11,667 bases of DNA from an uncultured Alphaproteobacteria bacterium (GTDB taxonomy: Bacteria; Pseudomonadota; Alphaproteobacteria; Paracaedibacterales; CAIULA01): NCBI GenBank assembly GCA_903905285.1, contig CAIVFQ010000015.1, positions 1 to 11,667 on the forward strand, written 5' to 3'. Position 1 is the first letter of the stretch. Every line of letters starts with the position of its first letter. The notes beneath the pieces were generated by a model. The model saw only the letters and a program-made list of their open reading frames with translations, made no database searches and was not told the origin of the DNA. A program made the position numbers and the translations under genes. Below, piece by piece: positions 4,403 through 11,667 of this stretch.

Positions 4403-6304
4403 TCAATCAAACCACGATTTAAGTTTGCCCCATCCTGAAGGTGCAGAGGAAGAAATATCCCTTTTTGAGGGCACTACATCACCTAAGACTCTGTCTTTTT
4501 CAGGATCAACCCACCACCCTTCAATAGAAGTTGGAGAATAAGGAGGGCACATGGGTTCAGGAAAACCAAAACGATCCCAAACAACCCAGGGAATAAAATT
4601 CATCTGCCACGCCGGAATCATATAATGGTTCCACAGTAACACGCGGTCTAGGGCCCTTGCTCGTACCACCATCGTGTCATAGTCTGGTGCCTCAATCAGT
4701 TTTTCAATCAACACATCAATAACTGGGTTCTTAATGCCGGCAACATTGTGCGTCCTCAGCTGATCAGCATGGGCACTTGACCACATACTCCGTTGTTCAC
4801 CACCAGGCGCCTGAGTTTGCGGGATGGTGTGCAAAATCATGTCGTAATCGTGATTATCATAACGTTCTTGATAAGTTAAGGAGTCAACAAGAGTAATTTT
4901 CATCTCAACACCAATCAGCTTTAAACAATTTTGAAAATGAATAACAATTTTCTGAATGGCGGGAATGTGAATTAAAAATTCGAATGTAAAAGGCTTGCCC
5001 GTTTTGGCATGAACCAACTTTTGGTCTTTCAGGACCCAACCAGCCTTCTTTAATAAACTTAAGGCTTTTGTGCGTGATTTTTGTAAATCATCGACCGTGT
5101 TATGCACAGGAACCTCAAAGGGTTCTATGAATAATTCCGCCGGCAATTGATCCTTAAACGGCTCTAACAGTTTTCGTTCTTGCTCTGTGGGGACGCCTTT
5201 CGCAGCAAAAGGAAAATTCGGGAAATAACTGTTATTGCGTTGGCTTTGTTTGTAAAACAAATTGTTATTCGCCCATTCAAAATCGAACACCTGACTTAAG
5301 GCCATTCGTACATCTCGATCAGCAAACAACGGTCTGCGTGTATTGAAATAAAGGCCATAGCTTCCATAACTAACTTTATGACCATACAAAGGTTGTTTTT
5401 TAAGTCTGCCTTGTTTAAACGCTGCAAAAGTATATTCTGTGGCCCAATTTTTCGTCGATATTTCAATTCGGGCATCAATTTGCCCATTTTTAAAAGCTTC
5501 AAGCATTACGTTTTGATCGCGGTAAAAATCAACCTTGATGATGTCAAAATTATGTTTCCCACGCTGACTGGGCAAATCCTTTGCCCACCAATTTTGCACC
5601 CGCCTATAGGTGATCGATTTTCCCTCTTTTAAAGTTTCAACAGCGTATGGCCCACTGCAGGGTGGGGAAATTAGGGTGGTTTCATGAAAAGAGTGGGTTT
5701 GGTAAAACTTTTTGCACAAAATGGGCATTCGGCCTAAGTTTCCGACCAATTCTCGGTTTTTATTTTTTTCAAATGTAAATTTGATTTGATGGAAAGATAT
5801 TCTTTCGACTTTTGTAACGCCCTTATAATAACTTTGAAATAAGGGCTTTCCGTGTTGACGCAAAGCCTCAAAGCTAAAAATGACATCGTCAGCAGTTATT
5901 GGCTGACCATCATTAAAACACGCCTTTGGGTTCAGGTGGAAAATCACACCCCTGCCGCCAACTTCTAGTTCAATTTTTGTCGCGACATACCCGTAATGGC
6001 TGTCCACCTCATCATAAGCAGGCGCTAATAAGGTCGCGTAACAACGCATCATTCCTTCCGGAATACTTCCCTTAATAATAAACGGGTTCAAGCTGTCGAA
6101 AGTTCCTAAGGCGCCCAATGTGATTTGCCCCCCTTTGGGTGCATTTGGATTCACATAGTCAAAATGTTTAAAATCAGCAGGGTATTTTAATGTGCCAAAA
6201 GCCGCGAAACTATGCTGAAGACCCCAGGTTGCGGCCTGCAAAGATGGTATAAGGAGCCCCAACCATAACAATAAAAAGAAGAGGTGTTTTTTAATATTTA
6301 ACAT
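4403..6304 (-). CDS. yejA: YejA-like periplasmic oligopeptide-binding protein (family 5 solute-binding protein)
   Basis: A 633-residue extracytoplasmic solute-binding protein of the ABC peptide-importer class. Residues 1-24 form a signal peptide (KK, then a long Leu/Trp-rich core, cleavage near LQA-A). There is no lipobox Cys, so it should be a soluble periplasmic protein. The mature start WGLQHSFAAFGTLKYPADFK (27-46), then HFDYVNPNAPKGG (47-59) and LGALGTFDSLNPF (63-75), is the characteristic opening of the YejA group, which binds peptides (in Escherichia coli with the YejBEF importer, including microcin C uptake). Later family-5 landmarks include FNDGQPITADDVIFSFEAL (130-148) and DRDVRMALSQVFDFEW (329-344). 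Length matches the family (about 600). The start overlaps the end of kdtA by 14 bases, and AGGA lies just before the ATG, suggesting translational coupling. No permease or ATPase genes accompany it in this window, so its transporter partners must be encoded elsewhere or it acts alone. Confidence 0.93.
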   Translation of the reverse strand: MLNIKKHLFFLLLWLGLLIPSLQAATWGLQHSFAAFGTLKYPADFKHFDYVNPNAPKGGQITLGALGTFDSLNPFIIKGSIPEGMMRCYATLLAPAYDEVDSHYGYVATKIELEVGGRGVIFHLNPKACFNDGQPITADDVIFSFEALRQHGKPLFQSYYKGVTKVERISFHQIKFTFEKNKNRELVGNLGRMPILCKKFYQTHSFHETTLISPPCSGPYAVETLKEGKSITYRRVQNWWAKDLPSQRGKHNFDIIKVDFYRDQNVMLEAFKNGQIDARIEISTKNWATEYTFAAFKQGRLKKQPLYGHKVSYGSYGLYFNTRRPLFADRDVRMALSQVFDFEWANNNLFYKQSQRNNSYFPNFPFAAKGVPTEQERKLLEPFKDQLPAELFIEPFEVPVHNTVDDLQKSRTKALSLLKKAGWVLKDQKLVHAKTGKPFTFEFLIHIPAIQKIVIHFQNCLKLIGVEMKITLVDSLTYQERYDNHDYDMILHTIPQTQAPGGEQRSMWSSAHADQLRTHNVAGIKNPVIDVLIEKLIEAPDYDTMVVRARALDRVLLWNHYMIPAWQMNFIPWVVWDRFGFPEPMCPPYSPTSIEGWWVDPEKDRVLGDVVPSKRDISSSAPSGWGKLKSWFD

Positions 6305-7637: not shown

Positions 7638-7692
7638 TAAAAAGAAGGATGTGCTAGGTTGTGCCAACGAACCCTTAAGTAAAGAGTCAACA

Positions 7693-10326
7693 ATGTTAGA
7701 AAAAACTTTTAATCCAAAAAGCTTTGAATCAATTCGCTACCTTCAAACGGAACCCTTCTTTAAGGCTGACCCAAAATCAGACAAAAAACCGTTTACGTTA
7801 ATGATGCCGCCCCCCAATGTGACCGGCAGTTTGCATTTAGGCCACGCGTTAACATACACATTGCAAGATATTTTGGTGCGGTTTAAACGTCAATGCGGGT
7901 TTGATGCTTTGTGGCAACCAGGAACCGACCATGCAGGTATTGCGACGCAAATGGTGGTGGAGCGCCAACTGGCTGAACAAAACGTAACGCGCCAAGATTT
8001 AGGGCGGGATGCTTTTTTGGAAAAGGTTTGGGAATGGAAAAAAGAATCAGGCGACACGATTGTTGAGCAACAGCGTCGGTTGGGTATTTCACCCGATTGG
8101 CAGCGGTCGCGCTTTACCATGGATGAAGGGTTATCCGAGGCAGTCAGCAAAGTCTTTATAGAGCTTTATCAAAAAGGTCTTATCTATCGTGCCAAACGCC
8201 TGGTCAATTGGGATTCTAAACTAAAAACCGCCATTTCTGATTTAGAGGTTATCAATCAAGACGTTAAAGGGCACATGTATTATATTCGTTATCCATTGGC
8301 TGACGATTCAACCCAAAGTATCTTAGTGGCAACAACCCGCCCTGAAACCTTGTTTGGGGATACGGCTGTTGCTGTTCACCCTGATGACGAACGGTATCAA
8401 CATTTGATTGGCAAAATGGTTTGTTTGCCCCTAACAAACAGAGAGATCCCCATTATTGCTGATACCTATTGTGATCCTGAAAAGGGAACAGGGGCTGTCA
8501 AAATAACACCCGGCCATGACTTTAACGACTTCGCCGTTGGTGAACGCCATGGTCTGCCACAGATCAATATCCTAGACGCCGATGCCTGTTTGAACGACCA
8601 GGTTCCCCTAGAATTTCAAGGGTTGTCGGTTGACCAAGCTTGTGAAAAAGTTGTGACCGAACTGGCCGAACATGCCCTGCTCATGAATGTAGAGGCGATA
8701 ACCCACGCTGTTCCCTATGGTGATCGGTCAGGCGTTCAAATCCAACCGTGGTTAACCGATCAGTGGTTCGTTGATGCCAAGGTTTTGGCTGAGCCGGCGA
8801 TTAAGGCTGTGGAAGAGGGCCGTATCCGTTTCGTACCCGAACAGTGGAACAACACTTATTTCGAATGGTTACGAAATATTCAGCCGTGGTGTATTTCCCG
8901 GCAAATCTGGTGGGGACATCAAATTCCTGCCTGGTACGGTCCTGATGGTCATGTGTTTGTTGCTGATGGAGAAGAGTCGGCCCACGCCCAAGCTGTTGCT
9001 CATTATGGTGAAAAAGTTGATCTGACCCGGGATACCGATGTTCTTGATACTTGGTTCTCTTCGGCTTTGTGGCCATTTTCAACCCTCGGTTGGCCCCAAG
9101 ACGATACCTTATCAAAGCGCTATTACCCAACCGATGTGTTGATAACCGGTTTTGATATCATCTTCTTTTGGGTGGCCCGCATGATCATGATGGGGCTGTA
9201 CTTTAAGGATGATGTCCCGTTTCGCACCGTTTACATTCACGCGTTGGTGCGCGATGAAAAAGGCCAAAAAATGTCAAAGTCAAAGGGGAATATTATTAAC
9301 CCCCTGGAGCTTATTGATAAGTATGGAACCGATGCGTTGCGGTTTACCTTGGCCGCCCTGGCCGCCCCTGGGCGTGACATTAAGTTGGGCGAATCGCGCG
9401 TGGAAGGGTACCGCAATTTTCTAACCAAAATTTGGAATGCTGCCCGTTTCTTGCAAATGAACGAATGCGCTTATAATCCTGATTTTGACAGCAACACGTG
9501 CCAACATTTGCTGAATCGGTGGATTGTTTATAAAACAAAAACGTTGGCCCGGGATGTTCACCAACACCTGGAAACGTATCGTTTTGATTGGGGTGCGCAA
9601 AGCCTGTATCAATTCTTATGGGGAAATTTTTGCGACATCTATGTTGAATGTCTAAAGCCACTGTTAAACGAAACGGACGATGAAGCTTTGCACCAAGAAA
9701 CCCGTCAAACCGCCAGCTGGGTTTTGATGGAATTTTTGAAGATTGCGCACCCGTTTATTCCGTTGGTGACTGAAGAATTATGGCAGGCTTTTTACCCAAA
9801 TGCCCCTTACTTGCTAATACAAAGCCCTTGGCCCGCCATTGATCAACCGCTGGCAGACGATAAAAACTTAAAGGCTGTGGAGTTTGCCTTAAGCATCGTG
9901 GCTGAAGTTCGATCGCTTCGGGGGTTGTTTAACCTATCACCTACCCTAAAAATCCCCTTGCTGCTAGATGGCCACACAGATGATACAAAAGTTTTGAAAG
10001 ACCATCAATCGTGGATTTTGCATTTAGGCCGTTTAGAAAGTCTTGATTTCAATCCTAATGATGAAGAAAAACAGAAAAGCGTTCCGTTTGTTATTGGGCA
10101 GAATACTTTCTTTTTAAAGCTGGGGCATTTGATCAACCTTGAGGCTGCCTATAAAGTTTTGGAAATGAAACGCGAGGCCTTGGATAAAGAGGCTGAACAT
10201 TTACAAAAGAAACTTTCCAACACGGCTTATCAGAAAGCCAAGCCCGAATCGTGGCAAACAGACAAGGAACTGCTAGAGACCAAGCAACACGAACAAAAAC
10301 GGTTGAGGCGAATTGTGGAGGGGTAA
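7693..10326 (+). CDS. valS: Valyl-tRNA synthetase
   Basis: Class I aminoacyl-tRNA synthetase that charges tRNA-Val in the cytoplasm and edits mis-charged threonine. From the ATG at 7693 it has 877 residues, somewhat shorter than the E. coli enzyme (951). Landmarks: PPPNVTGSLHLGHAL (39-53) with the HIGH-type motif HLGH (48-51), WQPGTDHAGIATQ (74-86), the CP1 editing-domain segments TTRPET (214-219) and GTGAVKITPGHDFND (265-279), the KMSKS motif (526-530), the anticodon-binding domain, and a C-terminal charged coiled-coil arm (about 814-877). The frame is open upstream to a GTG at 7651, which would add 14 residues. I prefer 7693 because MLEKTFNP is the expected family N terminus and AAAGAG lies six bases upstream. 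Bases 10009-10056 (residues 773-788) recur exactly at the right end of the window. The coding sequence itself looks intact through the coiled coil. The gene ends 20 bases from the convergent pyruvyl-transferase gene. Confidence 0.97.
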   Translation: MLEKTFNPKSFESIRYLQTEPFFKADPKSDKKPFTLMMPPPNVTGSLHLGHALTYTLQDILVRFKRQCGFDALWQPGTDHAGIATQMVVERQLAEQNVTRQDLGRDAFLEKVWEWKKESGDTIVEQQRRLGISPDWQRSRFTMDEGLSEAVSKVFIELYQKGLIYRAKRLVNWDSKLKTAISDLEVINQDVKGHMYYIRYPLADDSTQSILVATTRPETLFGDTAVAVHPDDERYQHLIGKMVCLPLTNREIPIIADTYCDPEKGTGAVKITPGHDFNDFAVGERHGLPQINILDADACLNDQVPLEFQGLSVDQACEKVVTELAEHALLMNVEAITHAVPYGDRSGVQIQPWLTDQWFVDAKVLAEPAIKAVEEGRIRFVPEQWNNTYFEWLRNIQPWCISRQIWWGHQIPAWYGPDGHVFVADGEESAHAQAVAHYGEKVDLTRDTDVLDTWFSSALWPFSTLGWPQDDTLSKRYYPTDVLITGFDIIFFWVARMIMMGLYFKDDVPFRTVYIHALVRDEKGQKMSKSKGNIINPLELIDKYGTDALRFTLAALAAPGRDIKLGESRVEGYRNFLTKIWNAARFLQMNECAYNPDFDSNTCQHLLNRWIVYKTKTLARDVHQHLETYRFDWGAQSLYQFLWGNFCDIYVECLKPLLNETDDEALHQETRQTASWVLMEFLKIAHPFIPLVTEELWQAFYPNAPYLLIQSPWPAIDQPLADDKNLKAVEFALSIVAEVRSLRGLFNLSPTLKIPLLLDGHTDDTKVLKDHQSWILHLGRLESLDFNPNDEEKQKSVPFVIGQNTFFLKLGHLINLEAAYKVLEMKREALDKEAEHLQKKLSNTAYQKAKPESWQTDKELLETKQHEQKRLRRIVEG
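10009..10056 (+). repeat. 48-base direct repeat, copy 1 (inside valS)
   Basis: This in-frame part of valS (codons for residues 773-788, SWILHLGRLESLDFNP) is identical base for base to the last 48 bases of the window, in the same orientation and with a period of 1,611 bases. Just upstream both copies also share ACCAT, with copy 1 holding an extra CAA codon (10006-10008). The match may continue beyond the window edge, so 48 is a minimum length. Confidence 0.95.
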
Positions 10327-10346
10327 ATTTATGAGGCTGACACAGT

Positions 10347-11501
10347 TCACTGAAAGTTCTCGGCATTATGCAGGCAATGAAAGTTCAACATAGCTTTATC
10401 ACATAATTTCTGACCTAAAATGTGATCTATTGGTTTGTTATATGATTCTAATGTTTGTTTATGCAGCTTTTCTGCTAGATCTGGATCATCATATCTAAGA
10501 GCACGTTCTGTACCTAATGCTTTCAATAACCCATCCATTTTTGGTGTATTACTATTCAGCGCAATAAATCTTGTGCCGAGACAACCCGCAGCTATTGTAT
10601 GATGAAACCTCCCACTCACTAGCAATTCTGCATTTTCAATACACGATAGCCATTGGTCTATATTTTTGGCCTCAAAAATTTTTAAATCGAATTTAAGTCT
10701 GGGTTTTACAAAAGCAACGAATTCCCTATCGTCCTTGGCAGGCCAGTCTTTTGCTCCATATAAAAAGGTTATGCTATATCCTTGTCGATGCATTGCATTT
10801 AAGTAAGAGCTGAACTGGGAAAGCCCATTTTTAAATTCATCAATATTACCCTTTTCATCAGACAAAATATTCAAATGTAGCCAGTTAGCAGAACCGGCAA
10901 TTAATAAGGTTTTAGGATCCTTTTTTCTGTCAGGGGTGTAATGATTCTTAATATATATGGGGGAGCAATCGAAGCTCTCAATCGCTCTAATTCCTATCTT
11001 CCTTGCTAGATTATAACTTAAGGGCTCACGAATTGCTGCAAAGTCTATAGCGTCATAAACAAGCTTGTATAAGTTTATAATATTACGGTCATCAATTGAA
11101 AGATTGTCTTGTGGATAGATTGAATGATTTATAATTTCCACATGCTTTCTGCAAAATACTTTAGCGACATAGCACAAATACAATAAGCTTAAAGGAGCAG
11201 GTCTGACTCCGTGAAGGGTTCCTTCACCATTCACGATTATAATATCATTCTGCTTTATCCTTTTTATAATTTCGGGATGTGATACAGAGAATTTAATAAA
11301 CTTATCTCCATCATTAAACTCTTGGATAGAACTTGGAGGTGCGGTGATCTTATAAGTTTCTGTGATTGAGATGGAATCTAATTGATATCCCAGTTTTGTG
11401 ATTTCATCTTTAATTGCGAGGCTGGTGGCAGTACATCCAAAGTGATACCAGTTTGTGGTATCGTTAATCAGCAGTACTCTGCTCAGCTTCTCTTTAGTCA
11501 T
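10347..11501 (-). CDS. Polysaccharide pyruvyl transferase family protein
   Basis: A 384-residue cytoplasmic protein resembling the polysaccharide pyruvyl-transferase family (CsaB/WcaK-like), which transfers pyruvate from phosphoenolpyruvate to sugars of exopolysaccharide, capsule or cell-wall glycans. Landmarks: an N-terminal LLINDTTNWYHFGCTATSLA (10-29) in place of the more common GxxNxGD opening, IIIVNGEGTLH (87-97) as the family's nGGG/nGEGT segment, FAAIREPLSYNLA (154-166), and the C-terminal VSGRFHHTIAAGCLGTRFIA (295-314) followed by NSNTPKMDGLL (316-326), the conserved S-RxH-hxxxA element and its downstream block. There is no signal peptide or membrane segment. AAGG lies about nine bases before the ATG. 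The gene is visibly more AT-rich than valS, stands alone, and is bracketed by a duplicated piece of valS, all suggesting acquisition. The acceptor glycan, and whether pyruvate is the true donor group, cannot be told. No terminator is seen in the 20 bases separating it from convergent valS. Confidence 0.85.
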   Translation of the reverse strand: MTKEKLSRVLLINDTTNWYHFGCTATSLAIKDEITKLGYQLDSISITETYKITAPPSSIQEFNDGDKFIKFSVSHPEIIKRIKQNDIIIVNGEGTLHGVRPAPLSLLYLCYVAKVFCRKHVEIINHSIYPQDNLSIDDRNIINLYKLVYDAIDFAAIREPLSYNLARKIGIRAIESFDCSPIYIKNHYTPDRKKDPKTLLIAGSANWLHLNILSDEKGNIDEFKNGLSQFSSYLNAMHRQGYSITFLYGAKDWPAKDDREFVAFVKPRLKFDLKIFEAKNIDQWLSCIENAELLVSGRFHHTIAAGCLGTRFIALNSNTPKMDGLLKALGTERALRYDDPDLAEKLHKQTLESYNKPIDHILGQKLCDKAMLNFHCLHNAENFQ

Positions 11502-11619
11502 ACAAACAAGCCTTTATAATTTGGGTTGCGGTGCCCTTCTTTTGTGTAGAATTTACTATACTGAGTTCCTGAGCCAAAATTAAAAATGCTTTAGCTACAA
11601 TACATGACAAGCTCACCAT
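11502..11619 (-). other. Upstream region of the pyruvyl-transferase gene; weak promoter candidate
   Basis: This 118-base AT-rich stretch separates the gene from the right-hand valS repeat. On the minus strand TATAGT (11555-11560) matches the -10 consensus at five of six positions and would start transcription near 11548, with no convincing -35. A short direct repeat CTGAG-TTC-CTGAG sits just upstream of it on the plus strand (11561-11573). No plus-strand gene is seen. In the valS frame, a TGA at 11605-11607 precedes the repeated fragment. Confidence 0.25.
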
Positions 11620-11667
11620 TCGTGGATTTTGCATTTAGGCCGTTTAGAAAGTCTTGATTTCAATCCT
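11620..11667 (+). repeat. 48-base direct repeat, copy 2: displaced valS fragment at the window edge
   Basis: Identical to valS bases 10009-10056. Read in the valS frame it continues upstream as HHSWILHLG, against DHQSWILHLG in the intact gene. The difference looks like a clean one-codon deletion plus one substitution, and homology is then lost. A TGA at 11605-11607 closes the frame and there is no start codon, so this is an untranslated remnant of a second valS tail as far as the window shows. Whether it runs on to a full 3' end lies beyond the edge. Confidence 0.92.

Follow-up and report, generated by a model that had tools for sequence, protein, structure and literature searches.

Integrative elements such as phage 21 and e14, both of which sit in icd, restore the 3′ end of the protein gene that they enter. 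Duplication of gene ends is documented in a different setting for Escherichia coli, where the portions of PMC3240628 dealing with integrants report that 56 of 60 PCR-tested integrants had duplicated the gene end used as homology; the duplications spanned 109-950 bp in the 14 that were sequenced, and the authors attribute them to circular molecules integrating by single crossing-over. For Helicobacter pylori (Nobusato et al. 2000), insertion with long target duplication has been described, as summarized in passages of PMC1643837 and PMC4978471, and the section of PMC5361080 on Vibrio T6SS and Rhs loci tentatively attributes displaced 3′ parts to HFIR.

Here we describe a locus in an uncultured alphaproteobacterium at which, in our assessment, ~1.6 kb of foreign DNA with a pyruvyl-transferase-like gene has probably been inserted at the 3′ end of valS, displacing the old end. 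The event is of a known kind and is clearly visible at this locus, which would illustrate in nature how a small-genome lineage can gain a foreign gene next to an essential one while leaving the latter intact.

A direct repeat of the valS tail at a contig end

The window, the whole stretch of 11,667 nucleotides analysed here, is the complete contig C15 (G000:C15) of a fragmented assembly of 1,645,362 bases in 217 contigs, with a completeness of 100 and a contamination estimate of 0.34. Its features are collected in Table 1; an in-frame GTG at 7651 provides an alternative start for valS and would extend the product to 891 aa. Separately, the window holds at 35-988 an open frame of 317 aa that has no Pfam or NCBIfam match.

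Table 1. Coordinates of the features at the valS locus, in window positions, with the evidence for each.
Feature	Position	Strand	Basis
valS, valine--tRNA ligase, 877 aa	7693..10326	+	Open reading frame from ATG; NCBIfam NF004349 and TIGR00422 above cut-off
Copy A, duplicated valS 3′ end	9997..10326	+	Self-repeat, C169 match and codon comparison; left limit uncertain, 9997-10009
Near-identical core	10009..10296	+	1 mismatch in 171 comparable bases
Last ten valS codons including stop	10297..10326	+	12 mismatches to the displaced end over 30 bases; tails of relatives
Inserted DNA, ~1.28 kb	10327..11607	.	One recognised gene, without a recognised mobility gene
Polysaccharide pyruvyl transferase-like gene, 384 aa	10347..11501	-	PF04230 match
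Copy B, start of the displaced valS tail	11608..11667	+	Self-repeat, C169 match and codon comparison; runs off the contig

Bases 10009-10056 and 11620-11667 are identical at 48 of 48 positions, in the same orientation and at a spacing of 1,611, as the original prediction had it; a 48-base exact repeat would be expected by chance ~6e-21 times in a window of this size. Ungapped extension of the repeat gives 59 bases, starting at 9998 and 11609, that are 93% identical. The window being the complete contig, the repeat is cut where C15 ends, within copy B. To the left, copy B is exact from 11620, whereas 11608-11619 has diverged yet keeps the valS reading frame (QAHHSW vs KDHQSW); similarity fades left of ~11608, and an in-frame TGA stands at 11605. 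Loss of homology on one side of a homologous anchor would suit HFIR, but a shared core is expected of any tail duplication. An earlier remark on an additional CAA codon and an ACCAT match in this stretch agrees with the letters (CAAG-CTC-ACCAT-TCG in copy 2, AAAG-ACCAT-CAA-TCG in copy 1), the gapped alignment being a reading by eye where MAFFT gave a gap-free one. Searches at the junction found no tRNA or tmRNA and no Rfam match reaching the gathering score.

A second valS ending on another contig

When the assembly was searched with window positions 9940-10400, three matches were returned: the tail itself, 11614-11667, and bases 1-146 of contig C169 at 94% identity, the last being the sole additional valS tail that the 1.65-Mb assembly yielded. 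C169 (5,368 bases) begins at what corresponds to window position 10174, in frame with valS, and reaches a TGA stop at 151-153. The genes that follow it, named from our reading of their translations, are a cold-shock-type gene (csp-), two ABC-transporter genes (mlaE-/mlaF-type), an uncharacterised gene and a glucose-6-phosphate-isomerase-type gene (pgi-). The assembly therefore contains two lead-ins to a valS tail and two continuations from it, with different genes beyond each. Since contig C15 already runs from upstream valS through copy A into the inserted gene, copy B is left to lead into C169, and C169:1-153 is probably its 3′ part. The join between position 11667 and C169 would follow from contig logic, with no read or contig spanning it and with 117 bases of copy B (the equivalent of 10057-10173) unassembled; a different layout or a strain mixture could also yield contigs C15 and C169.

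That the contig end falls inside the repeat would suit an assembly loop, a circle or a tandem array only, with the contig simply re-entering position 10057. The left flank of copy B, however, differs from that of copy A, and a second, different valS ending exists in the assembly; neither a tandem repeat or circle by itself nor a pure loop, both raised in the original prediction, explains that ending and the other genes behind it on C169. An assembly loop is unlikely, and re-entry as the whole explanation is scarcely credible. An excised circle or a strain mixture may coexist beside the insertion.

Divergence between the copies is concentrated in the last codons

The two copies show 1 mismatch across the 171 comparable bases of the core (48 + 123) and 12 across the final 30 bases (Fisher p = 1.6e-10). 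These last 30 bases are nevertheless homologous codon by codon, with 18 of 30 identical (chance ~9e-5). Eight codons are changed between the copies, seven of them within the last ten; three of the changes are synonymous and one is the stop. With a near-identical core, divergence concentrated at the end and the endings of relatives described below, the new part of valS is probably limited to roughly its final ten codons, rather than everything after residue 788, and these codons probably came with the insertion. The reading in which DNA recombined into valS and left the old end displaced was right to predict a second valS 3′ end, which exists at C169:1-153, and wrong about the extent of the foreign part: a foreign valS after about residue 788 is unsupported when 170 of 171 core bases agree and a strong difference is seen in the last 30 only.

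The two endings read RIVEG in the intact window gene and FIVER in the displaced copy. A protein search with the C-terminal part of valS returned five proteins at E ≤ 1e-30. The closest valS, P0121 (98% identical), ends in RIVEG as the window does, so the window's ending is also present in a distinct sequence; P0122 (87% identical) ends in FIVER, and seven of its last nine residues match copy B compared with five for copy A. Over the last nine aligned residues of 18 relatives, copy B fits better in eight, the copies tie in nine and copy A fits better in one (P0121), with seven of the eight relatives that favour copy B doing so by a single residue. On the strength of the P0122 ending and this tally, the displaced copy is therefore probably the older valS ending, a direction of change that is read from few residues. 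Residues 769-867 are identical to P0121 at 95 of 99 positions and to P0122 at 80 of 99, which does not indicate a foreign core. Aligning the tails with those of relatives, as had been suggested, thus leaned to the displaced form in 8 of 18, with 9 ties, and gave no sign of a foreign core.

Gene order near valS was compared by tblastn of 14 proteins from the window and C169 against 22 relatives' loci. No neighbours from C169 or the window were found there, the sole matches outside valS being weak ABC-ATPase cross-matches in one locus (L033); some of the loci held <1.1 kb beyond valS. Gene order is uninformative about the insertion. The relatives' valS genes read through, without conserved neighbours.

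The near-identical core would also suit a local duplication of the resident valS tail, with the foreign gene arriving separately. Against this, the unusual ending sits on the intact gene and not on the displaced copy, and the codon changes, concentrated in the last ten codons and including synonymous changes and a stop, are unlike the random decay of a dead copy. We regard such a local duplication as very improbable.

The inserted gene is rare among related genomes

The gene between the copies matches PF04230 (8e-15; 55.9 bits vs a curated cut-off of 25.3), bearing out the earlier call of a glycan-type pyruvyl-transferase gene on the opposite strand, and the chemistry of its product is predicted from sequence to be that of the PF04230 family. 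A more specific identity as CsaB was considered and rejected, with a TIGR03609 profile score of 44.4 bits, below the cut-off of 213.1. A search by sequence among solved structures gave none at E ≤ 0.01.

Of 42 genomes of the order searched, only its own yielded the gene (E ≤ 1e-5), and of 385 in the class sample 4 did, its own included (E ≤ 1e-10). With a G+C content of 0.363, the gene ranks lowest in a set of 11 (8 from the window and 3 from C169); among 121 long stop-to-stop frames, spurious ones included, 17% lie lower, so that the value is not extreme. The gene was likely acquired horizontally. No second copy of the inserted DNA was found in the assembly, and in two of the three other class-sample genomes with a homologue (L118 and L119), examined as possible donors, no valS was seen by eye in stretches of ~4 kb.

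A global search returned 277 homologues. Some of the 120 listed bear CE-clan/Ulp1- or OTU-type domains, and named sources among the same 120 include Arcanobacter lacustris, Parachlamydia acanthamoebae, Algichlamydia and Piscirickettsia salmonis. Because some relatives are fused to protease- or deubiquitinase-type domains, the inserted gene may bear on host association; a literature search linking pyruvyl transferases with effector roles found none.

Several of these relatives have features of their own. Extra domains in the long ones are of the OTU (P0005), CE-clan/Ulp1 (P0007-P0010) and RickCE-like (P0031) kinds, and a 692-aa relative at L118:1492-3570 has a C-terminal part that looks CE-clan-like by eye, without a Pfam hit there. 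A 275-aa variant, P0001, is identical to the inserted protein over 70% and has a different nine-residue start before KHVEI; it is represented by 8 member sequences on 5 contigs.

Shared gene tails elsewhere in the assembly

To place the valS tail in its genomic setting, 62 of the 217 contigs (480,384 of 1,645,362 bases) were compared all against all. This gave 251 pairs at an identity of at least 72%, from which a script kept those whose copies both end at a matching stop. Most kept pairs are contig edges of ~105-150 bases, many of them common to several contigs (for example L133, L136 and L179-L182); such pairs are therefore multi-copy and, in our judgement, probably represent insertion-sequence ends. 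Individual inspection of the kept pairs left out some, such as L163, L125 with L185, and L140 with L190.

Two kept tails were judged not to be of the edge kind: one in L126 and one common to contigs C13 and C7. The latter (L133:18139-18260 on C13, L127:11233-11354 on C7) runs for 122 bases to the stop with one mismatch and is followed by different sequence, and C7 begins inside the common tail, as C169 does. A further copy lies 574 bases downstream on C13 (L133:17565-17686, 74%). The tail resembles the end of DNA_pol_A with a score under the cut-off (19.3 vs 34.3 bits), and a protein search returned four short homologues, 75-85 aa in length. PF00476 has a single full match in the genome, a different gene located on C93; the body of the tail gene, which runs off C13, was not found. 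The C13/C7 tail could reflect the same insertion process again, or mixed strains; if it has the same origin as the valS tail, insertions in this genome may land repeatedly in gene tails.

Other repeats were noted in the course of the survey. Adjacent genes at L126:6-166 and 388-548 have a common C-terminal coding tail (86% over 161 bases), and short tandem copies around GTCGGGAATGTCGG lie between or beside shared gene tails at L133:17740-18010 and L127:11027-11060. A dispersed and apparently non-coding repeat family with members of up to ~350 bases occurs at L123:163-512 and 5838-6186, L134:1-194, L140:11018-11180, L124:11475-11583 and L131:2170-2239. A coding tandem repeat of ~105 bases per unit occupies L140:660-1521, in a long open frame.

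Mixed strains have to be weighed at valS as well, where C169 might derive from cells without the insert while copy B continues elsewhere. An assembly in 217 fragments would allow this, as would the existence of the 98%-identical valS of P0121, and mixed strains could also produce a tail such as that of C13/C7. The contamination estimate of 0.34 speaks against a mixture, and copy B, whose left flank is altered, lies on the same contig as copy A; a second copy therefore exists in any case, and a strain mixture would alter the layout and not the insertion. We consider this layout unlikely, though with an appreciable residual chance.

A model for the insertion

In the model that we favour, incoming foreign DNA, in which a pyruvyl-transferase-like gene adjoined a valS 3′ end, would have integrated into the resident valS tail. 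At the valS-side junction the gene would have been kept open and about its last ten codons replaced. With the other junction at about residue 769, ~318-330 bases of the valS tail would now be present twice, in direct orientation, on either side of the insert, the outer copy being the old, displaced valS end. One homologous crossover within the valS tail would suffice, either with a small circle (Campbell type) or with a linear piece joined illegitimately at its other end, and single-crossover or homology-facilitated integration is the likely mechanism. A donor end that differs by 40% beside a near-identical core calls for either a closely related donor whose end was mosaic or gene conversion at a later stage. 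As expected of such an event, a foreign gene lies between direct repeats of a long target, the full second copy depending on the presumed join to C169, and a displaced original end accompanies a substituted one, again through the presumed link to C169.

A displaced end together with a substituted C-terminus is also the geometry expected of a site-specific element, here a degenerate or trans-mobilised one using the valS 3′ end as an attachment site that its own tail restores. At ~318-330 bases, the shared segment exceeds what is usual for an attachment site. The genome does have four tyrosine-recombinase matches, two of them within open frames 392 and 394 aa long, and in Table 3 of PMC3091717 valS is among the sites bordering variable regions of four Photorhabdus and Xenorhabdus genomes. 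However, these recombinases lie on C150, C27, C6 and C30, with none on C15 or C169; a mobility gene was not recognised at the locus, the insert measures only ~1.3 kb, and its gene had no match in plasmids, phages or viral contigs. Site-specific integration is thus an unlikely origin. The original description as an integrative element holds for the displaced and substituted ends; in its strict sense it is unproven, as no mobility gene is recognised at the locus.

A bolder version would be a minimal integrase-free cassette, consisting of a cargo gene and a replacement 3′ end for an essential synthetase gene that serves as attachment site, moved in trans by recombination functions encoded elsewhere in the genome; the C13/C7 tail would then be a second site, gene tails would be recurrent landing sites, and excision would restore the old end. 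We regard this cassette as quite improbable. Under the favoured homologous insertion into the valS tail, the event should likewise be reversible, since recombination between the direct copies would delete the insert and leave valS with its old end again.

Comparison with known systems

The locus has in common with phage 21 and e14 in icd a substitute C-terminus and a displaced original end; unlike those elements, it has no integrase and a one-gene insert. The Helicobacter pylori cases, as PMC1643837 and PMC4978471 describe them in the relevant passages, likewise place a foreign gene between long direct target duplications, but often involve restriction-modification genes and were recognised by comparing two strains, whereas the gene here encodes a glycan-type enzyme, is seen without an empty-site genome and lies beside one copy with a diverged end. 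For the Vibrio T6SS and Rhs loci, the section of PMC5361080 concerned describes the addition of a new 3′ part with the old one pushed downstream, as here; the 3′ parts there are variable functional modules, in contrast to the housekeeping synthetase tail of this locus. In HFIR in E. coli, according to the portions of PMC3240628 on integrants, homology to the 3′ end in the incoming DNA duplicates the gene end over 109-950 bp, a range that includes the ~318-330 bp seen here. Those experiments used a laboratory plasmid and lacZ, whereas the valS locus is a natural one, in an essential gene that has come away with a slightly changed ending.
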